From Actinopolyspora xinjiangensis (GTDB lineage: Bacteria; Actinomycetota; Actinomycetes; Mycobacteriales; Pseudonocardiaceae): a DNA stretch of 64,000 bases. How positions within the stretch are numbered: the first letter of the stretch is position 1; each line of letters starts with the position of its first letter. Both the position numbers and the translations under genes were made by a program. The notes beneath the pieces are model-generated. The model was not told the DNA's origin, did not search any database, and was given only the letters and a program-made list of their open reading frames with translations. Positions 2,655-64,000 of the stretch are shown one piece after another. The stretch spans positions 173,629 to 237,628 of the forward strand of contig NZ_FNJR01000001.1 of assembly GCF_900104475.1 (NCBI RefSeq), in the 5' to 3' direction.

Positions 2655-2805
2655 GTGCTCTCCACGCACGTGGAGGTGGACCGGACGCGCAGCGGTGGAA
2701 CGTCCCCCGGTGGATGTGCTCTCCACGCGTGTGGAGGTGGACCGGCCATACGTCGCAGCCTGATGGTGTTCGAGGAGTTCTCTCCACACGTGTTGACCGG
2801 GCTGG
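2655..2805 (+). CRISPR. CRISPR mini-array 1: two spacers, degenerate last repeat
   Basis: 29-nt repeats lie at 2655-2683 and 2716-2744. They begin GTGCTCTCCACGC and end GTGGAGGTGGACCG, with an inner palindrome, resembling type I-E repeats of actinobacteria. The spacer at 2684-2715 is 32 nt. A third, decayed repeat starts exactly in register at 2777 (GTTCTCTCCACACGTG), giving a second 32-nt spacer at 2745-2776. A worn terminal repeat is typical of the trailer end. No cas gene is present in the window, so any Cas proteins must act in trans. Confidence 0.85.
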
Positions 2806-38557: not shown

Positions 38558-38630
38558 GCCCTCGTAGCTCAGGGGATAGAGCACCGCTCTCCTAAAGCGG
38601 GTGTCGCAGGTTCGAATCCTGCCGAGGGCG
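38558..38630 (+). tRNA. tRNA-Arg (CCT), integration site of the AICE
   Basis: 73-nt cloverleaf: acceptor GCCCTCG/CGAGGGC, anticodon arm CCGCT-CTCCTAA-AGCGG with anticodon CCT, T arm GCAGG-TTCGAAT-CCTGC. Its 3' part from 38589 is the att core; the element starts inside the gene and restores it. Confidence 0.95.
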
Positions 38631-38633
38631 CCC
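38589..38633. other. attL core
   Basis: 45 bp running from the tRNA-Arg anticodon loop to three bases past the gene end; identical to 53679-53723. Beyond it, both sites share a further diverged stretch containing the hairpin at 38656-38681. Confidence 0.9.
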
Positions 38634-38766: not shown

Positions 38767-40140
38767 CTACTGGCCGCCGAGGGCATCCTCCACTTGGCGT
38801 CGGGCCTGCACTTCTTGACCATCGACGCAGGCCGCGTACACGTCCAGCAGTACTGCCACGGAGTGTCCGGCCCATTTGGCGACGGTCGTCGGGGCCACTC
38901 CCCCGTTGAGCCAGGTCGACACGGCGGCGTGCCGCAGGTCGTACGGTCGTTTCGCCAACGGGGAGTTGAACGCTTGTGTAGTCAGTGCCGCTTTCCGCGC
39001 CGCCCGCCACGCCCGCATGTAGGTGATCTGCGGAATCCGACCGCCCTTCTCCCCGTAGAACACGCGGTCGTCGCCGTCGGGCGGGTACATCCGCGAATGC
39101 TCCAGCAGGATCCCCACGAGTTCCGGCGGACACGGCACGGGCCTTCCCTCACCTGGCTCCCGGTGTTTGAGCGGACGGGCATCCCGTGTCTCGCCGGAGT
39201 CGGTCCACTGGGATCCCGCGTGCGGACTCGCCTTGTCCAAGATGATCTCGCCCCATCCCTTGCTCGGAAGAGTCAGGTTCGACGCCTTCAACGTGACCAC
39301 CTCTTCGGGGCGCAGGGCGGCGAAGTACATCACCGCGAAGAACGCGTAGAGACGTGGGCCGCTGCGCTGGACCTCTTTCACCGCGTTGAGGATCGTGCGT
39401 GCCTGAATCGGGTTGGGCACTGAGCGGCGGTCAACCGCCCGAGTTGCTTTGGGGGCCGACCACTTGACTTCCGGCACGGGGTTGCGGGGTAGCTTCTCCC
39501 ACTCGACAGCGTGGTTCAGGGAGTTGGACAGCACCATTCGCTTCTGTCGAGCGACGCTGGAGGCAGCCTTCGAACCGTCGACATTGGTGGACAGGGCATC
39601 GAGCATCGCCCGAACGGTGCGCAGGTCCAGAACATCGGACAGCGGCCTGGAGTTCTTCGCGATCCACCGCAGAGTCCGGGTTACGTGCTCAGGTTGCTCG
39701 ACGGAGTCCCGCCGGGCGGTGTTGAAGGCCCAGAGGGTCAGTGCGGAGCGGATGGCCTTGTCGTCGGGCTTGCCACGGCGGGTGGAGAACATCACCGGAG
39801 TGACGCTGGTCAGGGATTCCGCGATGGTTCTGCGGTAGGTCGCGGCCGCGAAGTCCCACTTCGCGTCGACATACTGGCAAGCGAACTCGTACCACGTTAC
39901 GTCGACCTGCTGCCGACTCATCGACACAGGCCTACCCGTCGCTTTGACGAATGCCTCACCCTTTCGAGCGGCACTCATCAACTCCGAGCGAAAGCTGTCG
40001 GCGAGCGCTGAGTTCTTGAACGACTCGTAGAACTCTTCACCAGCGACGATCCAGCGGACTCCGTAGCTGGTGATTTTGCCCTTGTCGTTCTTGCGCACCT
40101 TCAGCTGCCAGATGCGGACGTCGTAGGTGGTGTCGGTCAT
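38767..40140 (-). CDS. int: Tyrosine integrase of the AICE
   Basis: 457 residues. Catalytic residues are visible: Arg in ALRPEEVV, His-x-x-Arg in YDLRHAAVS, the late His in KWAGHSV, and the nucleophile Tyr in LDVYAAC. It recombines the element with the tRNA-Arg site. Its ATG overlaps the xis stop (ATGA), so the two are made together. Confidence 0.95.
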   Translation of the reverse strand: MTDTTYDVRIWQLKVRKNDKGKITSYGVRWIVAGEEFYESFKNSALADSFRSELMSAARKGEAFVKATGRPVSMSRQQVDVTWYEFACQYVDAKWDFAAATYRRTIAESLTSVTPVMFSTRRGKPDDKAIRSALTLWAFNTARRDSVEQPEHVTRTLRWIAKNSRPLSDVLDLRTVRAMLDALSTNVDGSKAASSVARQKRMVLSNSLNHAVEWEKLPRNPVPEVKWSAPKATRAVDRRSVPNPIQARTILNAVKEVQRSGPRLYAFFAVMYFAALRPEEVVTLKASNLTLPSKGWGEIILDKASPHAGSQWTDSGETRDARPLKHREPGEGRPVPCPPELVGILLEHSRMYPPDGDDRVFYGEKGGRIPQITYMRAWRAARKAALTTQAFNSPLAKRPYDLRHAAVSTWLNGGVAPTTVAKWAGHSVAVLLDVYAACVDGQEVQARRQVEDALGGQ

Positions 40141-42733: not shown

Positions 42734-43936
42734 TCACGCGGCCTCCTGGTGGTGGCCTGTGGCTGGGGTGTTCGGCGGGTGGGCCGATGCCCCGGTGCCG
42801 TCCGAGGTGTCCGTTGTGGAGGCTCTCGGCGGCCCGGAACCCCTGTTCGGTTGCTGGCTGAGTGGGCCTGTGTCGGCTCGGGACGGTGCTGCCGGTGTCT
42901 CGGCCCGGCCGGTGGGCCGTGTTCGGCCGAGTCCGTGGAGGCTGTCGGGGGTGTCGTGGGTGCCGCGTAGCCAGCCGCGGGCGATGTTGCGGCGGGCGGT
43001 GGACTCCTCGGTGGGTTTGCCGGTGCGCTGTCGGCGGCGCAGCGCGGCGGCCAGCAGTGCGTCGGTGGTCTCGGTTTCGCTCCAGGGTGCGTGGTCGTGG
43101 GTGGCGAGGTTGGCCAGCCGGCGGGCGGCGGCATACAGCAGGCGCCACCGTTCGCCGGGGCGGGTTTCGACCTTGTCGAGCTCGTCGTGCCAGATGCGGC
43201 GCCAGTAGGCGGCGGTGTGCTGCCCGCTCCGCCCCGCGCCGAGGTTGGGAGCCTGTCGGGGCGCGGGCTCGGCCGGTGCCGGGGCCGGTGGCAGCACCCG
43301 GTGGCGCAGCCAGTCGGGAAGCTCGGCGATGCCGGTGGTGGGCGAGCAGCGTTGGTAGGTGCCGTCCCGGTCTTCGGGTGGGGCGTGGATCGCACAGCCG
43401 GGGGCGACGACGTAGCCGCCGTCGGCGCGCAGGTCGATCTGGTGCCCCACCCGGCCGGTGGCGTCGCTGGAGACCGACAGGCCCTCGGGGCAGCGGAAGT
43501 ACAGGTGCCGTCCCTGCGAGGGGGTTTTGACCGTGAGCGTGTCCGGCCAGGTCACCTGCTCGGCGGCTGTCAGGGCGTCGAGGGCGTGCAGCCCGTCGGT
43601 GACCGGGGTGGGGATGTCGGGGGCGGCTGGGGCGGGTGGTTCGGGTTTGCGGTCGAGGTCGAGCACCACCAGCCCGGACCGTCCGGTGTGGATACCGACG
43701 TTGGCCCGCGGGGTGTGGCGCCACCACCGGGCGAGCTGGCCGAGGTCGGTGGTGGCGGCCAGCAGCCCGTGACACGGGCGAGCCTTCGTCAGACACGGGC
43801 ATTCGTGGGGTGTGGTGCAGCGGCCGTGGCCACAGGCGCGGCAGTTGCCGAACGGGCGTTTGCTGTGCGGGCGCAGCGGGAACACGGCGAAGCCGTGCCA
43901 GGCCAGCCAACAGGCCACCTGATAGGGACTACTCAC
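42734..43936 (-). CDS. Bifunctional DNA primase/polymerase (prim-pol)
   Basis: 400 residues. Prim-pol domain at about 5-215: YQVACWLAWHGFAVFPLRP, metal-binding LVVLDLDRK, and PSQGRHLYF with the catalytic His. An inserted Cys-rich loop (CRACGHGRC, CPCLTKARPC) is a zinc site. The C-terminal part is hydrophilic. It would initiate and extend DNA for AICE replication. Confidence 0.88.
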   Translation of the reverse strand: MSSPYQVACWLAWHGFAVFPLRPHSKRPFGNCRACGHGRCTTPHECPCLTKARPCHGLLAATTDLGQLARWWRHTPRANVGIHTGRSGLVVLDLDRKPEPPAPAAPDIPTPVTDGLHALDALTAAEQVTWPDTLTVKTPSQGRHLYFRCPEGLSVSSDATGRVGHQIDLRADGGYVVAPGCAIHAPPEDRDGTYQRCSPTTGIAELPDWLRHRVLPPAPAPAEPAPRQAPNLGAGRSGQHTAAYWRRIWHDELDKVETRPGERWRLLYAAARRLANLATHDHAPWSETETTDALLAAALRRRQRTGKPTEESTARRNIARGWLRGTHDTPDSLHGLGRTRPTGRAETPAAPSRADTGPLSQQPNRGSGPPRASTTDTSDGTGASAHPPNTPATGHHQEAA

Positions 43937-43994: not shown

Positions 43995-44603
43995 TCATGC
44001 GGCGTGACCTCCGTGGGGGTGTTGGTCGCGGGGCCGGGTGGAGCGGGTGGGCAGCACGGTGAGTTTTCGGGTGGCTTTGACCTGGTACATGTGCGCATCG
44101 GCCTGGGCCAGTAGCTCGGACAAGGGGGTGCCCGCTGGGGCGGTGGCCAGTCCGACGCTGCCGAGCACACTCAGCCGGTGCCCGTCGATCCAGAGCGGTT
44201 CAGCCAGGGCTCGGGTGATGGCCTCGGCGCGGGCTTCGGCGTGGCCGAGGGTGGTGGTCGGTCCGAGCCAGATGGCGAATTCGTCGCCGTGCAGCCGTAC
44301 CGTTCGTTCCCGCGGCTGAGTCGTTTCGGCCAGCCGGGTGGCCACGGCGGCCAGCACGCGGTTGCCGAAGGCGTGGCCGTGGGTGTCGTTGAGGGCTTTG
44401 AAGTGGTCCAGGTAGACCATGAGCAGCCCCACCGCGCCCCGGCGCGGGCGGAAGCAACGTCGGGCGGTGCGGTACAGCGCGGCGCGGTTGCCGAGCCCGG
44501 TCAGCGGGTCGGTGTGCAGCCGGGCGTGGTAGCGACAGGCCAGCATGGTGGCGGCCGTGGCCCATCCGGCGGTGCCCAGCGTCAGGGCGATGTCTGGCAG
44601 CAT
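43995..44603 (-). CDS. Degenerate GGDEF protein encoded by the AICE
   Basis: 202 residues. A hydrophobic N-terminus (IALTLGTAGWATAATMLAC) is followed by a GGDEF domain, DPLTGLGNRAALYRT. The active loop reads HGDEF and no RxxD inhibitory site stands before it. It may be a weak or inactive cyclase, or a cyclic-di-GMP or GTP sensor. It lies between prim-pol and ssb. Confidence 0.8.
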   Translation of the reverse strand: MLPDIALTLGTAGWATAATMLACRYHARLHTDPLTGLGNRAALYRTARRCFRPRRGAVGLLMVYLDHFKALNDTHGHAFGNRVLAAVATRLAETTQPRERTVRLHGDEFAIWLGPTTTLGHAEARAEAITRALAEPLWIDGHRLSVLGSVGLATAPAGTPLSELLAQADAHMYQVKATRKLTVLPTRSTRPRDQHPHGGHAA

Positions 44604-44692: not shown

Positions 44693-45112
44693 TCAGAACG
44701 GGGGCGGCCCGGCGGGCTGCGCCGCGGGCTCACCGGTGGCGGTGTCGCGGGTGGCTTTGCGGACGGTGGCGGTGGCGAACTTCAGGCTGGCCCCGATCTC
44801 GGTGACCGCGAGTTCCATGAGGCTGCGTTTCTCGCCGTGCTCGGTCTCCCACGAGCGCTGTTTCAACGCTCCGGTGACCAGCACGCGGTCGCCTTTCGAC
44901 AGCGACTCGACCACGTTCTCGGCCTCCTGGCGCCAGATCTGGCACCGCAGGAAGGTGGCCGAGGCATCCACCCACGCCCCGCGGTCGCGGTCGTACTTGC
45001 GGTCGTTGGCGGCCACGGTGAAGTTGGCGACGCACACCCCGGAATCGAAGTACTTGATCTCAGGGTCGGCGACCATCGTCGCGGCCACGGTCACCTCGGG
45101 CAGTCCCGGCAT
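44693..45112 (-). CDS. ssb: Single-stranded DNA-binding protein
   Basis: 139 residues. OB-fold SSB core (ANFTVAANDRKYDRDRGAWV, TFLRCQIWRQEAENV, GDRVLVTGALKQRSWE) and a short tail ending GPPPF, the acidic-poor version of the partner-binding tip. Protects ssDNA during AICE replication or transfer. Confidence 0.92.
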   Translation of the reverse strand: MPGLPEVTVAATMVADPEIKYFDSGVCVANFTVAANDRKYDRDRGAWVDASATFLRCQIWRQEAENVVESLSKGDRVLVTGALKQRSWETEHGEKRSLMELAVTEIGASLKFATATVRKATRDTATGEPAAQPAGPPPF

Positions 45113-45700: not shown

Positions 45701-47767
45701 TTACGCGGCGTGTTGCTCGTCGTCGGGGTGCGGGTGGTAGCTGCCGGTCTCCTCGGCGGGGGTGATCAGTCCCTCGTCGGCCAGGCGGGCCAGTTCGCGG
45801 GAGGCCCAGGAGCGGTCGCGGCCGTGTAGCTCGGTGGGCACGTCTTTGGGGCCGAACACGGTGGTTTGTCGACCGATCCAGTCGTGCAGGTTGGCCCGTG
45901 CCTGGGCCAGGCTCGGCCGGGGCTGTGGGAGTGCGGTGGTGTTGGTTTCGGGGGGTAGTTCGGCGTCGGGGTCGACCTCCAGGTCGGGTTCGTGGGGTTC
46001 GGGCAGTGCGAGGACGTTCTCGTCGGGGTCGTCCTCGTCGTGGTCTTCGAGCTGGTCGAGTTGGTCGAGGTCGTCTTCGACCGTGGTGTCGTGGTTGGTG
46101 GGCTCGGTGCTGCGGCCGGTGGTGTGTAGGGGCACGACGGTTCCTCCGTCCTGCTGGGTCGTGCTGTGCTGGTTGGAGTCGTGGTCGTGGCGTGGGCTCC
46201 TCGGTAGGCCGAGCGTTGCGGCGGTGGCCGCTTCCAACTCCGCGGCTTGCGGGGCGTGCTCGACGATGGCGGCGGTCAGGTCCGCATCGTGGTGGGTGTA
46301 GGTGCGTGCCGGGGTGGCGAACAGCTCCTCGTCGATGCCCGGGCCTTCCAGGTACAGGCAGCCCGGGCGGCGGTTCTGCCACTGTTCGGGCCGCGCCCCG
46401 GCGTCGATCGTGGTGTCGGACAGGGAGAACCCGGCGTCCTCGCCCGTTTTGACGCCGAAGCACAGCGCCGCGCCAAGTTGGGAGCGCACGTCGGTGCTCA
46501 TCTGCCGGTAGCTGGACTTCTGTTGCGAGAGCACCAGCGAGATCCCGGCCGAGCGGGCTTCCTGGGCGATGGTGTCGAACTGGTCGACGTCTTTGAGCAG
46601 CTTGGAGGCTTCCTCGACCCACACCACGATGTAGGGCATGCCGTGCTGGTCGTAGGCGGCCGGTTCCCACTGGTCCATGCCCCACTGGCCCAGCTGGGAG
46701 GCCCGGTCGGTGATCGCCTGGGGCAGTTTTTTGAGCAGTTTCTTGCACCGCCCCGTCTCGGTGAGCAGGTGCGCTGTCGAGTCCTGCAGGAAACTGACGG
46801 TCTGATCACCCTTGGACGGGTCCAGCACGATCAGCACCACGTCGCGGCGGGTGAGGATCTCGGTGGCGGCGAGCTTGAACCCGCCAGACTTGCCGGAGCC
46901 GTTCATCCCGTTGACCTGCACATGCGTCGCGTTGCGCGGGACCGAAGGGTCACCGGGCAGCCACAGCCGCACCACCTCGGCGTTCTCGTAGACGCCCAGC
47001 TGGAGCGGCTCCAGAATCGACCCGCCCGAGGCCGAGGGGCCCGGCCATGCCTGGGGGTCTTTGAGTACGTCCTCGGCCACCACCGTCAACTGGGCCTTCG
47101 ACGCGTCGGTGGGGTCTTCGGTGACGCGCACCGCGCCTTTGCGCAGCCCCAGCATCGCCGCGATCTTGTCCGAGGCCTTCTGCACATCGGCCACCTCGAC
47201 CTCCCCGGCGGGAAGCCGCAACGGGCCGGTGACCTTGTTCGGCTGCACCTCCAGCTTGCCGGTCTTGACGCCGGAGAGTTTGACCTTGTCGAACAGATCC
47301 GAGGTGGCCGATCCCCCGGATTCGGAGTCGCCACCGCGTTTGAGGGTCTTGTGGATGCTCCAGGCCACCGCGACACCACCGCCGCCGAAAGCCCACAGCT
47401 CCAACAACGGGCTCTGCCACGGCCCGGCGATGGTGGCCGCCGTGGTCCAGGCGGCTGTGACCCCGACGGTGGCGGTGGCGAACTGGCGCACCACCGCCGC
47501 CCGAGCCCTGGCGCAGTAGTAGGTCACCCCCGTCAGCCCGGCACCCAGCAGCGTCAGCCCCGAACTGGCCCAGGGCATCACCTCCGCCGAGGCGAACCAC
47601 AGGTGCGCCCCAGCAGAGACCGGCCACACCGCCAACCCGCCGACCCACTCGGGCGCGTAGGGAGCCAAACGGGAGGCCCAGTGGCCCTTCGGCTTCTGAT
47701 ACCCGAACTCCGAGAGGGTGCCGCCGGTGACCGCGAGGTCACCGCCACGCTTACGCTGACTGGCCAT
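45701..47767 (-). CDS. tra: FtsK/SpoIIIE-type conjugative translocase
   Basis: 688 residues. Four hydrophobic N-terminal segments (up to about residue 130), then the motor domain with Walker A VNGMNGSGKSG and Walker B PYIVVWVEEASKLL, and a C-terminal acidic linker ending in a winged helix (SWASRELARLADEGLIT). AICEs use one such hexameric pump to move double-stranded DNA between mycelia. ATG 47767 (MASQRKRGG) is preferred to the one three codons upstream. Confidence 0.92.
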   Translation of the reverse strand: MASQRKRGGDLAVTGGTLSEFGYQKPKGHWASRLAPYAPEWVGGLAVWPVSAGAHLWFASAEVMPWASSGLTLLGAGLTGVTYYCARARAAVVRQFATATVGVTAAWTTAATIAGPWQSPLLELWAFGGGGVAVAWSIHKTLKRGGDSESGGSATSDLFDKVKLSGVKTGKLEVQPNKVTGPLRLPAGEVEVADVQKASDKIAAMLGLRKGAVRVTEDPTDASKAQLTVVAEDVLKDPQAWPGPSASGGSILEPLQLGVYENAEVVRLWLPGDPSVPRNATHVQVNGMNGSGKSGGFKLAATEILTRRDVVLIVLDPSKGDQTVSFLQDSTAHLLTETGRCKKLLKKLPQAITDRASQLGQWGMDQWEPAAYDQHGMPYIVVWVEEASKLLKDVDQFDTIAQEARSAGISLVLSQQKSSYRQMSTDVRSQLGAALCFGVKTGEDAGFSLSDTTIDAGARPEQWQNRRPGCLYLEGPGIDEELFATPARTYTHHDADLTAAIVEHAPQAAELEAATAATLGLPRSPRHDHDSNQHSTTQQDGGTVVPLHTTGRSTEPTNHDTTVEDDLDQLDQLEDHDEDDPDENVLALPEPHEPDLEVDPDAELPPETNTTALPQPRPSLAQARANLHDWIGRQTTVFGPKDVPTELHGRDRSWASRELARLADEGLITPAEETGSYHPHPDDEQHAA

Positions 47768-47817
47768 TGTTCGCACACTCCTTTCCCGATGGCCTCGCGG
47801 TCACCGCGATCACTGGC

Positions 47818-50713: not shown

Positions 50714-50900
50714 TGGCACATGTCTTCTTGCTCTGTCAACCCTCCGGCTTGAACCGACTCATCGCGTCGACGTCTCCGAGATTGGCCGCTCGGACGGCTC
50801 ATCAACACGGGACGAGAGGGGGACCGAAGGGGACGGACCTGCTTGCTTGGCCGGTCCTCCCCTGTGCAGAGTGAGAGCGAACAGGCACCTGGAGGGATTC

Positions 50901-52028
50901 ATGGAAGCCACGCCACTGCTGCGTGTGCGACAGGAGCTCGGTCTCACGAAACAGCAGGCCATACGCAAGCTGAAGCGTTCAGCCGAAGAGCTGGGGCAAC
51001 CGCTGTTCGTCACCGACGAAAGCATCAATCGTCAGATGCGCTACTGGGAACAGGGTTCACGGATCGTTCCGGAGCAGTACCACGCACCGTTCTGCGCAGC
51101 TTACGGCCGCTCTCCTGCCGAGCTCGGTTTTACACCGATCGACTCTCAGGAATTCGACGAAACGTCGAGCGATCTGAACGAACGTCTTCAGTTCACGGAG
51201 GTCGATTCGTCCCTGGTAGAGCTCTTCGAGAACCAGACACAGAACTTTCGACTGCTCGACCGCAGGTTGGGAGCAGAACGTCTCTTCGAACAGACCAGTA
51301 GTCACGTTCAGCAAATAGAGGAAATGCTGAAGTACGCCGTCCCCGGAGACGCTCGGGAGATGCTGGCCGCCGCCCTCGCGGAAGCTTCCGCACTCTCCGG
51401 TTGGCAAGCTCTGGACATGCGTAACGCACGAGATGCTTGGCAGATGCATGAAATCGCGAAAACCGGAGCACGAGAGTCGGAAAACCCTTCCATTCTCGCG
51501 CACGTGACAGCGCAGCAGGGCTACGTTCTGCTGGACGCGGAACGTCCATCCGAAGCGCTCACGCTCGTACAGCGAGCCCGCTCGAAAGACCAGGACAAAA
51601 TCCACCCTCGGATGCGTAGCTGGCTCGCTGCGGCCGAAGGGGAAATGCGCGCAGCCGCTGGCGACGTCAGCGGCACTTACAAGGCACTCGACGAAGCCGA
51701 CCGGCTCCTGCCGAATGAGCCAGGAGACAGTGATCCTGAACTTCCGTTCCTCGCGCTGAACAGTACGCACCTGGCCCGCTGGCGTGGCCACTGCTTGGCG
51801 CGTCTGGGAGCGGCCGAAGCGGTCAATGATCTGAACTCCGCCCTATCAGGGCTCGCTGGTGGAGACTTTCGACGTGCGGAGGCTGGGGCGCGAGTGGACC
51901 TCGCGATGGCTCTCAAAGCACGGGGCGAGGAAGAGGAAGCACGAAAGCACGCGAAACGCGCTGACGAACTGGCCGGAAACACCGGATCTGCTCGCCAGCG
52001 CGCACGCATCCAAAAACTTCAGAACTAA
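50901..52028 (+). CDS. XRE-type regulator with TPR domain
   Basis: 375 residues. An N-terminal HTH-like part (LLRVRQELGLTKQQAIRKL) and helical TPR-like repeats from about 120 (AREMLAAALAEASALSGWQA, EALTLVQRARSK, ALDEADRLLP). This architecture is common in actinomycete elements and is often ligand-responsive. ATG 50901 has GGAGG 5 bp upstream. Divergent to the transfer operon; possibly its activator, in the place of pSAM2 Pra. Confidence 0.7.
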   Translation: MEATPLLRVRQELGLTKQQAIRKLKRSAEELGQPLFVTDESINRQMRYWEQGSRIVPEQYHAPFCAAYGRSPAELGFTPIDSQEFDETSSDLNERLQFTEVDSSLVELFENQTQNFRLLDRRLGAERLFEQTSSHVQQIEEMLKYAVPGDAREMLAAALAEASALSGWQALDMRNARDAWQMHEIAKTGARESENPSILAHVTAQQGYVLLDAERPSEALTLVQRARSKDQDKIHPRMRSWLAAAEGEMRAAAGDVSGTYKALDEADRLLPNEPGDSDPELPFLALNSTHLARWRGHCLARLGAAEAVNDLNSALSGLAGGDFRRAEAGARVDLAMALKARGEEEEARKHAKRADELAGNTGSARQRARIQKLQN

Positions 52029-52582
52029 TAACCACCTGAGCTGAACGCCAGGTAGTGCAGCACCGCAACCAGCGTTCCGGAATTGACGATCTGGCCGGAT
52101 GACACCAGGTTCCGCAGCTCGCTGACCGGAACCCAGTGGAACTTTCCCTCGTCCAGTTCCGAAACGTCGCCGACCGTCTCGATGTCACGGCCGAGGTACA
52201 CGTGATGCGGATTGGTGACGGTGCCGATCATCGGCTCGAACGTCACGAGGTGCTCGACCGAGCGGGCGCGGTAACCGGTCTCCTCCTCCAGTTCACGCGC
52301 TGCTGTCTCGGCCGCGGGTTCGTCCTCGTTGAGCAGCCCACCGGGCAGCTCGTAGTTCCACACGTTCGACACGAAACGATGACGGTAGGAGAGCAGGACG
52401 TGGCTCTCGTCCTCGTTCAGCACGAGGATCATCGCCGCCGGTGGGAGCCACACCTTGTGGTGCTCGAACCGTTCCCCGGAAGGCACCGTGATGTCGGCCA
52501 GCCCGAGGCGGACCCACTCGCTCTCGTAGATCGTCCGTTCACCGTGCACAAGCCACTCGCCGCTCTTGTTCGGCTGCTCCAT
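52025..52582 (-). CDS. Nudix hydrolase, Pif-like
   Basis: 185 residues. Nudix box GGLLNEDEPAAETAARELEE followed by ETGY, with all Glu ligands. ADP-ribose pyrophosphatase-like overall. In pSAM2 the Nudix protein Pif, encoded by the regulatory block, prevents transfer between cells that both carry the element. The same place beside a GntR gene supports that role here. Converges with the XRE gene, overlapping by 4 bp. Confidence 0.75.
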   Translation of the reverse strand: MEQPNKSGEWLVHGERTIYESEWVRLGLADITVPSGERFEHHKVWLPPAAMILVLNEDESHVLLSYRHRFVSNVWNYELPGGLLNEDEPAAETAARELEEETGYRARSVEHLVTFEPMIGTVTNPHHVYLGRDIETVGDVSELDEGKFHWVPVSELRNLVSSGQIVNSGTLVAVLHYLAFSSGGY

Positions 52583-52621: not shown

Positions 52622-53074
52622 TCACTCGTCCGGCTGGGCCACGAAGGCACCAGCCCCGTGCCGAATCACGATCGTGCCCTCGTCCGCCAGCAAGCGATAA
52701 GCTCGACGGACCGTATTCCGCGAAACGCCGTGCTGTTTGGCCAACCGTGCCTCACCGGGAAGCGGCATCTCAGACCGAAACTCCCCGGCCGCTATCCGCT
52801 CCCGGAACTCAGCGGCCAACCGCTCGTACGCGGTCGTGGCATCACCCGGAGATGCGGGCTCCCCTACGACTCGGCGACCATGACCGGGCAGCACCTCGAC
52901 AAGCCCGGACTCTTCGAGTACATCGAGCGCGGAGCGAACCGTGTTCCGAGCCACCGAGTGCTCGCCTGCCAGACTCGACTCCGACGGCAGCAGGGTGCCA
53001 GGAGCGTAGTGCCCTGCCTTGATCTGCCGCTCCAGCTCAGAAGCGATCACACGGTACGTTCCACGGTCAGCCAC
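52622..53074 (-). CDS. KorSA-like regulator with two GntR helices
   Basis: 150 residues made of two tandem GntR winged helices: LLPSESSLAGEHSVARNTVR and PLPGEARLAKQHGVSRNTVR. No effector domain follows. KorSA of pSAM2 is a GntR repressor of replication and transfer genes; the adjacent Nudix gene matches its partner Pif. The doubled domain could bind paired sites as a monomer. Confidence 0.8.
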   Translation of the reverse strand: MADRGTYRVIASELERQIKAGHYAPGTLLPSESSLAGEHSVARNTVRSALDVLEESGLVEVLPGHGRRVVGEPASPGDATTAYERLAAEFRERIAAGEFRSEMPLPGEARLAKQHGVSRNTVRRAYRLLADEGTIVIRHGAGAFVAQPDE

Positions 53075-53123: not shown

Positions 53124-53139
53124 CATGCATGCATGCATG
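53124..53139. promoter_or_regulatory. CATG x4 palindrome upstream of the GntR gene
   Basis: Four CATG units in a row, a 16-bp perfect palindrome, 50 bp before the GntR start. Likely its autoregulatory operator. Confidence 0.55.
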
Positions 53140-53237
53140 ACAACCAGTATTGCGCACATATGCCAAGAGCGTGCTTACGGAGGAACCAAGCCATCTAGCA
53201 GCGTCGTCTTGCCCCTTCGTGTATTGTCAATGCCTCC

Positions 53238-53278
53238 AAAACGTGCAGAAGGCTTTCCAAAACTCCTGCTCGCAGAGG
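53238..53278 (+). promoter_or_regulatory. CRISPR leader-proximal element, array 2
   Basis: AAAACGTGCA (53238-53247), 31 bp, then the first repeat; GCAGAGG abuts it. Identical in both blocks and spacing to the leader of array 1 at 2614. Confidence 0.75.
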
Positions 53279-53490
53279 GTGCTCTCCACGCTCGTGGAGG
53301 TGGTCCGCTGCTGACGAGCATCATCGACGAGACCGGGGAGTGCTCTCCATGCTCGTGGAGGTGGTCCGCTGAAATCCGTGACGATGGGGCACACGCATCG
53401 GTGCTCTCCACGCTCGTGGAGGTGGTCCGTCGATGTGCCCACCAGGGATCGCCCAGTGCCCGTGCTCTCCGCACCCGTGGAGATGGTCCG
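53279..53490 (+). CRISPR. CRISPR mini-array 2 carried by the AICE
   Basis: Four 29-nt repeats at 53279-53307, 53340-53368, 53401-53429 and 53462-53490, with three spacers of exactly 32 nt. Repeats read GTGCTCTCCACGC to GTGGAGGTGGTCCG; the last one has three or four changes, marking the trailer end. Type I-E-like. The array lies inside the element, 188 bp from attR. No cas gene exists in the window. Spacer targets are unknown. Confidence 0.92.
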
Positions 53491-53678: not shown

Positions 53679-53723
53679 CTCCTAAAGCGGGTGTCGCAGG
53701 TTCGAATCCTGCCGAGGGCGCCC
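53679..53723. other. attR core
   Basis: 45-bp copy of the tRNA-Arg 3' region, identical to 38589-38633. It lacks the 5' half of the tRNA, so it is not a gene. Confidence 0.9.
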
Positions 53724-53850
53724 CTCACCAGCCCCGGAAAAGGCCCTGTGAGCTGCACGGACAGCCCACAGAGCTATTTCACGGTTACCTGGTTGTACCC
53801 AACTCAGCTCAGGTTTCTACGACGCTCCACGTACAGTGTGCGTACACGGC

Positions 53851-54010
53851 TCACGTGCGTTGCCCACCCAGGGCGGATTCGACCTGAGCTCGGGCGCGAA
53901 CCTCCTCACCGTCCAGGCAGGCCGCGTACACGTCCAGCAGCACCGCCACGGAGTGTCCGGCCCACTTCGCGACGGTGGTCGGGGCCACTCCCCCGTTGAG
54001 CCAGGTCGAC
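53851..54010 (-). pseudogene. 3' stub of a second, related integrase
   Basis: The last ~52 codons of an AICE integrase (STWLNGGVAPTTVAKWAGHS, LLDVYAACLDGEEVRARAQV), about 80% like int at 38767. The non-coding stretch 53724-53850 also matches that beyond attL. Homology stops abruptly at 54010 (CCAGGTCGAC), where a recombinase gene in the opposite direction begins. It is the remnant of a second element once inserted in tandem. Confidence 0.85.
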
Positions 54011-55261
54011 GAGAAGCGGCACCCGCGCAGCAACGTCACGGTCTCGCAGGTGCTGGAGCAGTGGCTGGAGGTCGCGCGGCACGAGGACAGCACCCGCGAG
54101 CGTTACCAGGATCTGATCCGGCTCTACATCGAACCGACCTTCGGCACCACGACCGCGGCGAAGATCGACGCCGAACTGCTGGAGCGCTGCTACGCCCGGC
54201 TGCGCGCCTGCAAGGACCTGTGCGGCGGTAAACGCGCGAAGGACCACGAGTGCACCCCGCTGGCGTCGAACACCGTGCGCAAGATTCACTTCATCTTCCG
54301 CTCCGCCTTCGACCGGGCGGTGCGCTGGCGCTACCTCTCGGTCAACCAGGCCGAAATCGCCCAGCCGCCGTCGTTCGAACACAGCGAACCCGACCCGCCG
54401 TCGGCCGCCGAGGCCGCGAGTCTGTTGCGGGAAGCCTCGGAGGATCCACAGTGGTGTCTGCTGTTGTGGTTGACCATGGTCACCGGGTGCCGCAGGGGTG
54501 AGCTGTGCGCGCTGCGGTGGGGCGATGTGGACCTCGCGGCAGGGATGCTGTCCATCGAGCGCAGCTACTCCAAGACGCGCGAGCGTGCCCGGGAGAAGAG
54601 CACCAAGACGCGGCAGCGTCGCCGCATCGCGCTGGACACGCACACCGTCGAGCTGCTGCGGGAGCATCGAGAGCAGGCGCGGTCGAACTGCGCCGCCCTC
54701 GGCACGGGTTTCGACGACAACGCGTTCGTCTTCAGCACCGAACCCGACGGGTCCGCTCCGCTGTTGCCCCGAAGCGTCAGCCAGCGCTACCGACGCCTGG
54801 CCCAACGCCTCGAACTGCGCAGCACCCGGCTGCACGCACTACGGCACTACTCCGCGACCGAATTGCTGGCCAACGGCACCGACCTGCGCACCGTCGCGGG
54901 TCGCCTCGGCCACGTCGACGGCGGCGTGACCACGCTGAACACCTACGCCGGCTGGGTCACCGAAGCCGACCGCAAAGCGGCCAACACCATCGCCGACACC
55001 GTCCCCAGACCCGAGCCCGCCAACCGCCGACCCCGCAGCCCCTACGAACACCTCGCCGCCGAACTCCGCGACGCCATCACCACCGGCACCTACTCCCCCG
55101 GCGACGAACTCCCCACCGTCACCGACCTCGCCACCACCCACGACCTCTCCACCGGGACCGTGCAGCGAGCAATCACACTGCTCAGGCAGGAAGGACTCAT
55201 CGACGTCGCCCGCGGACGACGTGCGACAGTTGCTCATAGGGGTCCCCAAGCAGCTCACTAG
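53975..55261 (+). pseudogene. 5'-truncated tyrosine recombinase with GntR C-terminus
   Basis: From 54011 on, the frame encodes a core-binding domain (VTVSQVLEQWLEVAR), a full catalytic domain (Arg in TGCRRGELCAL, HALRHYSATE, GHVDG, Tyr in NTYAGW), and then, after residue ~350, a GntR winged helix (AELRDAITTGTYSPGDELPT). The N-terminal arm domain is missing, and the first ~12 codons are antisense to the integrase stub. The catalytic part could still fold. Confidence 0.75.
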
Positions 55262-55547
55262 GTACACAGGTCCTTGCGCTGTGATCAAGGAGAAAAACTT
55301 TGCTTCAGACCTACGAAACCAGCTTCATGCGAAGCGGTCTGTCTGGCTGATCACTAGTGCTCAAGCACCGTCTCGCGGATCTTCAGTGCGGTTTGGTGCG
55401 GGTCTTCGGGCTGAGGAGTTGGGAAACGAACAGCGCGATCATGCCTGTACCCAGTCAGAGCAAGCGTGCATGATCAATGTCAAAGCTCGCCACCTCGGAC
55501 GGAAACTCAGAGTAGGCACAGCCCACATCCTGCTACGATCACTTTTC

Positions 55548-56135
55548 ATGTCTTGGCTCCAGTTCATAGCGGACCTGGTCGGGGTGCTGGCTTGGCCTGT
55601 TTTGGTATCCGTCGGTCTTGTGATATTCCGAAAGCCGATCACTGCGTTGGCTCAAGGGATGGCCGCAGGTCGTAGCCTGAAACGCGTGAAGGCTGGGCCC
55701 ATTGAAGCCGAGTGGGAACAGCAGCTGGACCAAACTGAACAGGCGATGGTGGGGGCGGCGCAACTTCAAAACGAACGCCCGGATTCGGATACTGCCGAGG
55801 ATCCCCATACCGAGGAGTTGCTGGCCTTGGCATCCAAATCTCCCACCGGTGCTCTCTTGAAGGCGTTCCAACTTCTGGAAATCGAACTGTCTCGTGTTGC
55901 AGAAGAGTCCGGAGTCCTTAAAGACTCCAAACGCCGCAGCACACCTCAGCTGTCAAGGCTCCTGCACGCCGATGGCCGTATTGATGACGAGACCATGACA
56001 AGCGTGCGTTCGGTCAGCGAGGTACGCAATCAGGTTGTTCATGAGGACGCAGACATTACGCCTGCTCGTGCGGCACAGTATGTGCTGGTAGCAATGGAAC
56101 TGCGATCACGAGTAGGAAGAATCTCGGGCCGGTGA
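55548..56135 (+). CDS. Membrane-anchored protein with HEPN-like R-x4-H motif
   Basis: 195 residues. One N-terminal helix (FIADLVGVLAWPVLVSVGLV), then a helical cytosolic domain with LLKAFQLLEIELSRVAEESG and, near the end, SVRSVSEVRNQVVHEDADIT. RNQVVH fits the R-x4-H signature of HEPN RNases. Such proteins are toxins or abortive-infection effectors in many systems. Lower GC than the chromosome. ATG 55548 begins just before the helix. Confidence 0.65.
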   Translation: MSWLQFIADLVGVLAWPVLVSVGLVIFRKPITALAQGMAAGRSLKRVKAGPIEAEWEQQLDQTEQAMVGAAQLQNERPDSDTAEDPHTEELLALASKSPTGALLKAFQLLEIELSRVAEESGVLKDSKRRSTPQLSRLLHADGRIDDETMTSVRSVSEVRNQVVHEDADITPARAAQYVLVAMELRSRVGRISGR

Positions 56136-56425
56136 TTCGCTTGCGCCAAGCAAAGGGGAACCTCGTCCTCATCCCGTCTGACCTGGCTTCGCCCGATCAG
56201 GCCATGTCAAGGGCGCAACCGCTGAACCCAGTAGTACACCCTAATGCCAGACTTGCGCCCCGACACGGCCTGATTCCTCTCGGGAAGGTCAGGGGATATG
56301 AGGACGCTAGGCTACTCCCGAACCGCAACCGATGTCGGGGCCTTTCCATCCCGGCGACCCGTCTGGAACCTGGGGACGGCGAGCTCCTCAAGGGTAGTCT
56401 ATGTCAACACGGCGGCTACGCCTGA
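56132..56425 (+). CDS. Possible small coupled open frame
   Basis: 97 codons, GTG start overlapping the stop of the HEPN-like gene (GTGA). Composition is not clearly coding and it runs into the convergent gene's end. No domain recognised. Confidence 0.25.
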   Translation: MIRLRQAKGNLVLIPSDLASPDQAMSRAQPLNPVVHPNARLAPRHGLIPLGKVRGYEDARLLPNRNRCRGLSIPATRLEPGDGELLKGSLCQHGGYA

Positions 56426-57423
56426 GGAATTGTCCGATATACAGCCATAGGAATTATCGAAAAACCAGGAAACGGTGGAGCGTCTGCAATTCCCTGTCCG
56501 GCGATATCTTCCATAACTGAATTTAGACCGGAAACAAACTTGTTTCGATCGATAACATCACCACTTGCGGCCATAAAGTCCATGTTCTTCATTTTTCCAA
56601 GATCAGGCTTCTTCGAAAAGAACCCTATGGTCCCTACTACAGTCCATTCTTGTTCCTGCCTGCCATAGCGCGAGAACAGAACTTCGGGCTCTGCATCAAG
56701 ATACCTTCGCCCCTGCTGAAGCCGTGCCGTAGCCGACCATTCTACCCCCTTTTGCGACGATAGCAGCAAGTGCAATCCATCCGTAAAGAGCGCTCTTGAC
56801 ACTTGCACAAAAGACCGGAGCTGTTCCGCATTAACAGCCTCGGAAAATATAGAGGAATCAAAGTCTTCTACAGCGTCTTCCAGCGTCTTATCTTCAGAAT
56901 TTTTGCTTTTTGCTGATTTTCCTTTTTGTGCATTCTTCGCATGAGGATTGGATGCCCTATTGAGGCGCCCCAGTCCTGCACCCAACGTGGACATACTTGC
57001 CAGTACCTGCGCTACGTGTTGGGAATCAAAGAGTTGACCATTGGCGGTTAGGCGAACTATCGATCCCTCTCGAGCTTGCTCTCGGAGTGCTTGCACATCT
57101 TTCACAGTTGAATCATCAAAAATGCCTGATATATCTCTTAGCCACCCTTCTGATTCGAGTATTTCTTCCAGTTCCGGAAATAGGGCATCAAGGAGCGTTC
57201 TTTGTTGTGAGTCTTCGGCTGTATGACCACTATCATGACCAAGCCATTTTTGCACTCCAGCGTGGAACTTCTTTGTGCTTGATACAGACTTGCTGTCTTG
57301 TTCTGGAACCCCACCGACGCGCTGCGCCAACAATGAGCGGACGCGGTCAATGTCGGCATATAGAAACTCGCGAAGTACTTGCGCATGAGCATCCTCGCTG
57401 GATTGTATATTGGACATAGTCAT
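56416..57423 (-). CDS. DUF6414-like protein
   Basis: 335 residues. The start LREFLYADIDRVRSLLAQRV with GGVPEQ resembles DUF6414 family proteins, as does the C-terminal part (EVLFSRYGRQEQEWTVVGTI, PPFPGFSIIPMAVYRTI). A Lys/Ser/Asn-rich linker near residue 180 is typical of lower-GC DNA. GC content is close to 45-50%, far below neighbours, so it was acquired recently. Its function is unknown; it converges with the HEPN-like gene. Start ATG 57423 or 57417. Confidence 0.6.
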   Translation of the reverse strand: MTMSNIQSSEDAHAQVLREFLYADIDRVRSLLAQRVGGVPEQDSKSVSSTKKFHAGVQKWLGHDSGHTAEDSQQRTLLDALFPELEEILESEGWLRDISGIFDDSTVKDVQALREQAREGSIVRLTANGQLFDSQHVAQVLASMSTLGAGLGRLNRASNPHAKNAQKGKSAKSKNSEDKTLEDAVEDFDSSIFSEAVNAEQLRSFVQVSRALFTDGLHLLLSSQKGVEWSATARLQQGRRYLDAEPEVLFSRYGRQEQEWTVVGTIGFFSKKPDLGKMKNMDFMAASGDVIDRNKFVSGLNSVMEDIAGQGIADAPPFPGFSIIPMAVYRTIPQA

Positions 57424-57724
57424 GTCCCACTTATCGAACCCGTGGTGGCGAACGTTACAGCTTTCCTTATTGAAAGGCGGCATCGCCGCGGTCTCTGGCC
57501 GCCTGCCTTCCACCCGGTATCTTGGGGATACCGCCCGCTCGTCCGCGTCACGCTCGGCTGCTGGCGCCGGGATCGGCGCCAGCCACACGCCCGTCGTCCG
57601 GCCCGAGCCAAGCGCACCAATCGCGAGCAGACTGCCCCGGCAGGGGCCCTCCCTTGATGAAGAATAGAAACTTTACACACACGCACACCGGGACTGGGCT
57701 GGTCGATGGTCCAGTCAGCGGCGG
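57424..57724. other. Intergenic region
   Basis: About 300 bp; GC returns to chromosomal level from 57500 on. No gene or clear motif seen. Confidence 0.35.
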
Positions 57725-58195
57725 TCAGCTGAGATACGGCTCGGAACGTTCCTGCAACGCGTGCTCGATGCGCATCCGCATCGTGGGGTGCATGGTCAAC
57801 GAATCCAGCTCCGCGGGATCGACCCAGTGCACGCGGCGGCTCTCACCGCTGGGCCGTAGTCGTCCTTCCACCGGTCGGGCGGTGAACACGATCGAGAACT
57901 CCTGGCGGACCTCGCCGTCGTCGTAGGCGATCACGTGTCGCGGGTCGGAGTAGATGCCGACGATGCCGGTGATCTCCACCGTCAGCCCGGTCTCCTCGGC
58001 AACCTCGCGCAGGGCGGCTTGGCGGGTGGTCTCGCCGAGGTCCTGCGCTCCGCCGGGCAGGGCCCACAGCTCGTTGTCGGTGCGCTCGATCAACAACACA
58101 CGACCGGACTCGTCACGAACCACCACGGCCACCGCCACCACCAGACTGTTGGCGGCCGGGGCCCGCGGATCGCCGTAGTAGTCCCGCTTGCTCAT
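57725..58195 (-). CDS. Nudix hydrolase
   Basis: 156 residues with box GGAQDLGETTRQAALREVAE then ETGL, MutT-like. Hydrolyses a nucleoside diphosphate derivative; substrate unknown. A lone gene between mobile-element relics. Confidence 0.85.
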   Translation of the reverse strand: MSKRDYYGDPRAPAANSLVVAVAVVVRDESGRVLLIERTDNELWALPGGAQDLGETTRQAALREVAEETGLTVEITGIVGIYSDPRHVIAYDDGEVRQEFSIVFTARPVEGRLRPSGESRRVHWVDPAELDSLTMHPTMRMRIEHALQERSEPYLS

Positions 58196-58212
58196 GGTCC
58201 CTGCCTCTCAGA

Positions 58213-63487: not shown

Positions 63488-64000
63488 CGACGAATCAGCC
63501 GGTTGACCTGCGACGGGATACCAGATCGATCACCGTCGCTTGATCGTCGCCTCCCGGTCCGCGGGCTCATCCGGGGCATGTCCGGTTTCGTGCATCCGCT
63601 TCGCGGTATCGTTCCGCTCCGTGCGGAAGCAGGCATCCGTACGATCCCGACGTGGAATGCCTCTCCTCTCCACGGGACCGAACGGCATCGAAGTTCCACC
63701 GTCCTGCCAACACCCCGCACGACGAGGCCCACGCCCTCCAACGACCATCGATATTAGTCCACAACGGATAGACCGCCGCCGGACAAGCCGTGGTCCTGCC
63801 GCCTTGGGAGAAGGAGCACCGACCTTCCCCGGTCGGACACTCACATTCGTCCCCCTGGCGGTTCGCGGCACCAGAGCAGCTCCCTGCAACGGCACCGCCG
63901 ATCTCGTTCCAGGACCATCGGAAAAGAGCTGCTCCAGCAGGATGGCTCACCCGACCGGCACGGCCGAACCGGCCCGCCCGCCGCGCACGACGCGCCAACC
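63488..64000. other. Unassigned end of window
   Basis: High-GC sequence returns here. Several open frames overlap on the minus strand but none shows a recognisable domain or start. Confidence 0.3.

Follow-up and report, generated by a model that had tools for sequence, protein, structure and literature searches.

A cas-less type I-E CRISPR array in the attR-proximal cargo region of an AICE in Actinopolyspora xinjiangensis

A Campylobacter ICE reportedly carries Cas9. Fcci3350 of Frankia, a T4SS-type ICE, contains parts of a CRISPR-Cas system including cas genes, according to the accessible text of the source (PMC3218068). Short arrays apart from cas genes occur on self-transmissible DNA of actinomycetes: in the accessible portion of PMC12231136, the Streptomyces plasmid SCP1 has a short array of four spacers without cas genes, and pSHK1 has seven arrays, five of which lie away from its cas genes. 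A survey of plasmids counted 207 orphan arrays, which are on average shorter than cas-linked arrays (PMC9071438, excerpt). Viruses have been reported to use mini-arrays against rival viruses; these consist of few spacers, come without cas genes and borrow the Cas proteins of the host (PMC11656645, excerpt).

Here we describe a small array on a different type of carrier. We analyzed a stretch of 64,000 nucleotides from the halophilic actinomycete Actinopolyspora xinjiangensis (the window; positions without contig label refer to it, and its own genome is designated G000) and found the array inside a 15.1-kb AICE. Like the arrays of SCP1 and pSHK1 it is short and separate from cas genes on self-transmissible actinomycete DNA, and like the orphan plasmid arrays it is a cas-less array on a mobile element. 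However, its carrier is a small tRNA-integrated element rather than a plasmid, and its host is without a detected cognate Cascade. It shares the low number of spacers and the lack of cas genes with virus mini-arrays, but not their host-identical repeats, and its spacers gave no convincing match of the kind that most virus spacers have to related viruses. Both Fcci3350 and the Campylobacter ICE are likewise integrative conjugative elements with CRISPR components, yet the former has cas genes and is of T4SS type rather than an AICE, and the latter is said to carry a cas gene. Cas-less arrays on plasmids and viruses are well known, and an AICE as carrier is new as far as we have searched: a preceding interpretation of the DNA letters (the sequence-only reading) knew of no array described on an AICE, and none appeared among the matches listed from the literature on AICE, ICE, pSE211/pMEA100 and Actinopolyspora in combination with CRISPR. 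If the array is active, element-borne CRISPR conflict would extend from plasmids and viruses to AICEs, one of the chief ways in which genes spread among antibiotic producers, and competition of AICE against AICE would become testable.

The array spans 53279-53490 and its repeats follow each other in steps of exactly 61, 61 and 61 nt (Table 1), in agreement with the four 29-nt repeats and three 32-nt spacers of the sequence-only reading. Repeat 3 is an exact copy of repeat 1, repeat 2 deviates by one base and the terminal repeat by four. With up to three mismatches the 29-mer matched the window five times, three times in the AICE array and twice at 2655-2744, compared to a mean of 0.00 in 100 shuffled controls. 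Folding yielded the same 6-bp stem with a 4-nt loop for each of the three repeat variants; in repeat 2 the altered base still pairs through G-U, and the stem of the terminal repeat persists despite its four changes. Since the folding energies of single repeats were unremarkable compared to shuffles (z -1.0 to -1.4), the stem rests on conservation and not on energy. Stem-bearing repeats of 28-29 nt, unique spacers of 32-33 nt and a regular period, the features of subtype I-E arrays, are all present, and the repeat family adjoins I-E cas operons in the genomes G050, G340, G332, G002, G204, G368 and G352. The array is a real CRISPR array of type I-E character. Type I-E cas genes were not found in the window by tblastn with eight Cas proteins of the host operon and four of a cognate operon (E 0.01), so that the statement that the window is without a cas gene was borne out for this type. 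A crude scan did not find a sigma-70-like promoter for the array.

Table 1. Coordinates of the AICE, its CRISPR array and related arrays (window positions unless a contig of G000 is given).
Feature	Position	Strand	Basis or remark
Chromosomal mini-array, GTGGACCG handle, 2 repeats	2655..2744	+	decayed third repeat at 2777
tRNA-Arg (CCT) gene, integration site	38558..38632	+	ARAGORN, Rfam
attL core, 45 nt	38589..38633	+	identical to 53679-53723
Tyrosine integrase, beside attL	38767..40140	-	PF00589, E 1e-8
Prim-Pol replication protein	42734..43936	-	PF09250; 59% to pCM32 Prim-Pol (tblastn)
Single-strand binding protein (SSB)	44693..45112	-	PF00436
TraB conjugative DNA translocase	45701..47776	-	NF041214, 808.8 bits vs cut-off 800
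NsdA-family regulator	50847..52028	+	NF053720 above cut-off
Nudix hydrolase	52025..52582	-	PF00293
GntR regulator	52622..53074	-	PF00392
Leader, 53 nt compared with other arrays	53226..53278	+	leader comparison
Repeat 1	53279..53307	+	
Spacer 1	53308..53339	+	
Repeat 2, one change, stem kept through G-U	53340..53368	+	
Spacer 2	53369..53400	+	
Repeat 3	53401..53429	+	
Spacer 3; reverse complement reads GHWAIPGGHI	53430..53461	+	
Terminal repeat, 4 changes, stem kept	53462..53490	+	
attR core, 45 nt	53679..53723	+	identical to attL core
Arrays of the AICE repeat family in G000	C7:1987, C14:88203, C16:252069, C19:176283, C19:226907 (AICE), C19:285222, C19:289920, C19:291142		

The element carrying the array is bounded by two identical tRNA-Arg cores that are 15,090 bp apart and to which about the last 42 bases of the tRNA belong. 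Judged from its predicted genes, it has the layout of an AICE: an integrase with att repeats in a tRNA gene, an own replication protein (Prim-Pol) and a single FtsK-like TraB scoring above the NCBI cut-off. The nearest plasmid Prim-Pol, with 59%, is that of pCM32 of Saccharopolyspora endophytica. The GntR regulator stands in what we take to be a KorSA-like position, and the array follows between its gene and the attR core, 188 bp before attR, inside the element as the sequence-only reading had placed it. A 202-aa GGDEF (diguanylate cyclase) protein is encoded between Prim-Pol and SSB (43995-44603).

The GntR protein has relatives with 95% identity in G047 and G049, both Actinopolyspora. The DNA identity of about 80% to the AICEs of these two genomes ends at 53134, beyond which they carry other cargo. 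The slot of G047 is occupied by a remnant, which had no match in Pfam and which we read as HD-type, and by a 769-aa gene without Pfam match, that of G049 by a pentapeptide-repeat gene, and in the slot of G202 a match to an Mrr-like nuclease lies slightly under the Pfam cut-off. The differing cargo of relatives past 53134 marks the region before attR as a variable cargo slot. A proposed check for arrays at the same place in related AICEs gave a negative result: none was found in seven flanks of related AICEs (L109-L115) or in nine stretches of other genomes that are flanked by the tRNA-Arg core on both sides (L208-L217; same-core intervals whose status as AICEs is putative). This search covered three regularly spaced repeats as well as the AICE repeat family, for which only single matches with 6 or 7 mismatches were obtained. 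A weak repeat signal in L215 was an 18-nt tandem repeat and not a CRISPR array.

The host genome (5.04 Mb, 33 contigs, 99.93% complete) contains one Cse1, two Cas1 and two Cas6e. The presence of a type I-E cas operon elsewhere in the genome, also proposed for checking, could be confirmed: contig C33 carries one complete operon with Cas3, Cas8e, Cas11e, Cas7e, Cas5e, Cas1e and Cas2e (PADLOC) plus Cas6e (Pfam), together with two long arrays whose repeats GGTTTCCCCGCTCGCGCGGGGGTGAGCC and GGTTTCCCCGCGCGAGCGGGGGTGAGCC differ from the AICE repeat. Contig C30 has a further Cas1 plus an array whose repeat is 37 nt long. The AICE repeat is identical to none of the repeats of these host Cas systems, whereas identity would be expected of a mini-array used in conflict between elements.

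The AICE repeat family (up to two mismatches) is present in 20 of 390 family genomes and in 6 of the 10 genomes of the genus. Two clades of I-E operons adjoin such arrays: the first in G050, G340, G332, G002 and G204 (Cas7e 59-65% to G050), the second in G368 and G352. Among the Actinopolyspora genomes, the first clade occurs in G050, and second-clade operons (46-57% to G368) occur in G047, G048 and G051; AICE-family repeats are absent from G047. Neither clade was detected in G000, G046 and G053 by Cse1 profile search and comparison, and the single Cse1 of G000 belongs to neither of these repeat-associated clades. The effector operons of G047, G048 and G051 (L147, L149, L151) showed neither an array nor a Cas1 match in the 19.5 kb fetched and may read dispersed arrays in trans.

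With neither clade detected in G000, the C33 system is the best candidate partner there. That its Cascade currently processes and uses the AICE array despite the different repeat is improbable in our estimation. The operon is complete, its repeats resemble the AICE repeat in stem-loop layout and in part of the handle (GTGGTCC against GTGAGCC), and its Cas8e, at 34-38%, resembles that of the cognate clade more than those of the remaining I-E clades in the comparison (26-29% or no match). On the other hand, C33 reaches only 34%, 45% and 42% identity to the Cas8e, Cas7e and Cas6e of G050 (for Cas6e, the G050 protein was compared against C33 DNA), two base pairs of the stem and two bases of the handle are different, and Cas6e is usually choosy about its repeat. 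Given that a cognate Cascade was not detected in G000, the array is probably silent in this host or weakly served by the divergent C33 Cascade. The proposal that the element borrows host Cas proteins thus holds in so far as a complete I-E operon exists, but the arrays of C33 use a different repeat and the cognate clades were not detected in G000; for other hosts, borrowing is a sound hypothesis. We also considered a solitary Cas6e (G000:C19:520950-521747; L070:10451-11248), which is 74-100% conserved in six repeat-bearing Actinopolyspora genomes and has no cas neighbors among nine ORFs scanned. We consider it an unlikely cognate nuclease and processing partner, as the relatives found in G002 and G352 (60% and 61%) adjoin arrays with another repeat, of GGCCCCGC core, and as it is only distantly related to the G050 Cas6e, which does lie beside the AICE repeat family.

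Base 26 of the repeat bears on the origin of the array. It is T in 4 of 4 AICE copies (GTGGTCCG array), whereas in Actinopolyspora A is found in 128 of 145 repeats and T in 3 (fetched loci from six genomes, up to three mismatches). T is present in 132/132 repeats of G332, 32/32 of G340, 8/8 of G352, 18/19 of G368 and 7/7 of G369, in 24/26 of Saccharopolyspora endophytica G348, and in 25/25 repeats of S. subtropica loci and 36/50 of S. endophytica loci, a 48,218-base contig being common to the latter set and G348. Further genomes gave T in 4/11 (G373), 1/44 (G204, Haloechinothrix; A in 43/44) and 0/13 (G002), and with G204 and G373 the handle base is no strict genus marker. Being rare in Actinopolyspora and usual in Saccharopolyspora, T at this position points to import of the array, and import together with the element would be the simplest reading; pCM32 and G348 come from the same species, S. 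endophytica.

Leader similarity does not point to one source of the array. Best agreement with the AICE leader was 33/53 in G002, G332 and G368 and 32/53 in G053 from the host's own genus. The mini-array 50 kb away consists of two full repeats (2 and 3 mismatches) plus a third, decayed one (11 mismatches), and its leader agrees with that of the AICE at 27/53 positions, mainly in the distal AAACGTGCA and in CGCAGAGG next to the junction. The sequence-only reading had described repeat and leader as matching this array; the repeat family is indeed the same, but the leader match is partial and the third repeat decayed. Copying from this array is disfavored by the different handle base and loop, the leader comparison being undecisive.

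In G000 the AICE repeat family forms no fewer than eight arrays with at least two repeats each and also occurs as single repeats. The seven arrays outside the AICE have most of the leader GAAAACGTGCAGCGGCGGTTGTAACGTCGCAGGTCGCAGAGG in common, of which the AICE leader retains mainly the two ends. The repeat family is not peculiar to the element: the genome contains no fewer than seven further arrays of it, and the flanks of related AICEs that were examined are without one. These other arrays would offer homology if the AICE array served as a recombination site, or was a chance passenger between element and host arrays, rather than a source of guides, and recombination is named as one idea for orphan arrays (PMC9071438, excerpt). 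We regard this as highly improbable because the AICE already owns an integrase and intact att cores and the homology is restricted to 29-nt repeats of differing sequence.

Small dispersed I-E-type arrays were observed at C19:283-295 kb (L052), C7, C14 and C16 of G000 and also in G046, G048, G050, G051 and G053. They hold 1 to 4 spacers in G000 and up to 11 in G050, and most have the same leader. Their loci are partly syntenic between species (L053 and L069: 94% over 9.4 kb) and the spacers differ. A fixed link to DUF397 was rejected: a motif search found a DUF397-like gene just upstream at 13/46 sites, so the association is not general. NZ_CP023977.1 and seven other Streptomyces plasmids have stretches without a listed gene that match the AICE array region; their number per plasmid ranges from one to several and reaches 15 in one case, and they may represent further arrays. 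A broader and in our view doubtful proposal is that AICEs carry a portable Cas-free guide cassette beside attR that the compatible Cascade of the next host reads and that in Actinopolyspora is part of a trans-acting network. Such a network would comprise the small one-family arrays, at least eight in one genome and most with a shared leader, and the array-less I-E effector operons of some sister species could read them.

For the three spacers, no full or convincing protospacer was found in phages, plasmids, viral contigs or family genomes, and the use against rival elements or phages suggested by the sequence-only reading did not gain a target from these searches. In 50,697 phage records, spacers 1, 2 and 3 matched 19, 1 and 0 records, none with 80% query coverage. 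In 72,556 plasmid records they matched 187, 14 and 16, with 80% covered in 87, 1 and 0; the best plasmid match of spacer 1 (90.6% over 32 nt, E 1e-3) is on a Sinorhizobium megaplasmid and was read as chance in coding DNA. Degenerate protein-level patterns (one chosen frame each) returned 0, 0 and 0 matches in viral contigs, and the first 20 nt of the spacers returned 0, 1 and 0. This partial match of spacer 2 is in the same reading frame and falls in a viral-contig gene of 1025 aa; of the remaining 12 positions, 2 agree. With the joined spacers as query, 74 of 386 family genomes matched at E 0.05 and the full exact match was found only in the window's own genome; as scoring was confined to two candidates in each genome and even spacer 2 of the host itself was missing from the list, misses are likely. 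A blank target search is usual for such spacers, since 99.5% of 2104 Streptomyces spacers are without a phage or plasmid match in the accessible portion of PMC12231136.

The reverse complement of spacer 3 translates as in Nudix hydrolases. It has weak matches in G254 (5 mismatches, reading GHWALPGGHVDAGE) and G220 (6 mismatches, reading GLWAIPGGHLDEGE), both presumably Nudix hydrolases as well. The AICE's own Nudix gene does not match spacer 3. Pif of pSAM2 is a Nudix protein acting against redundant element exchange (PMC3218068, accessible text). Given this role and the frequent occurrence of Nudix genes on AICEs, an AICE target of spacer 3 is possible; Nudix genes are, however, common everywhere. 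Comparison of 803 unique spacers from the fetched arrays with pCM32, AICE loci and the remainder of the window gave 166 matches versus 98 with reversed spacers (E 0.05); three of the 166 exceed the best score of the reversed control. Among these three is a spacer from a mini-array of A. mzabensis, which matches the Nudix gene of the G047 AICE at 23 of its first 24 positions but has 8 mismatches in 32. These sequence matches are only suggestive of related arrays targeting AICEs.

Taken as a whole, the chances appear about even that the cas-less array is guide cargo in the attR slot of the AICE, probably from another genus, and here silent or weakly served. Another genus of the family is its probable source, with the AICE as vehicle. 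Given a host with the cognate Cascade, the array would be transcribed from its leader and Cas6e would cleave the RNA at the stem base; the resulting 61-nt crRNAs with GUGGUCCG handle would guide host Cascade and Cas3 to DNA matching the three spacers. The 61-nt period, the kept stem, the identical att cores, the swap of cargo at 53134, T at position 26, the pCM32-like Prim-Pol and the cognate operons beside family arrays in other genera speak for such guide cargo; the lack of a convincing protospacer, of arrays in the relatives examined and of a sigma-70-like promoter in a crude scan, a handle base that is no strict genus marker and the undecided source of the leader speak against it. Its main rival is an inert relic, i.e. 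a fragment of an I-E array that was caught by the AICE and is neutral and decaying, which we consider possible but on the unlikely side. A relic would agree with the undetected cognate Cascade in G000, with just three spacers and with the array-less relatives examined, and in G053, where repeats are present without Cse1, several repeats are damaged. It agrees less well with repeats 1 to 3 being nearly perfect, spacers of exactly 32 nt and a kept leader-repeat junction. Even as a relic, the mismatch of repeat, handle and resident Cascade would provide a simple marker of arrays moving between genera without Cas genes.

The DNA to the right of attR resembles the left end of the AICE (76% over 300 nt), so that two elements or remnants lie in tandem here. 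Tandem elements have also been told of other tRNA-Arg AICEs (PMC3218068, accessible text). The second AICE-like remnant (53724-58200) includes an ORF in which an integrase domain is joined to a GntR domain (53975-55261) and a second Nudix gene (57725-58195). A spacer of the host's C30 array matches 57558-57595 with 5/38 mismatches; this stretch is G+C-rich and the match may be chance. The site 63520-63551 is matched, with 3/32 mismatches, by a G048 spacer from an array of C33 type.
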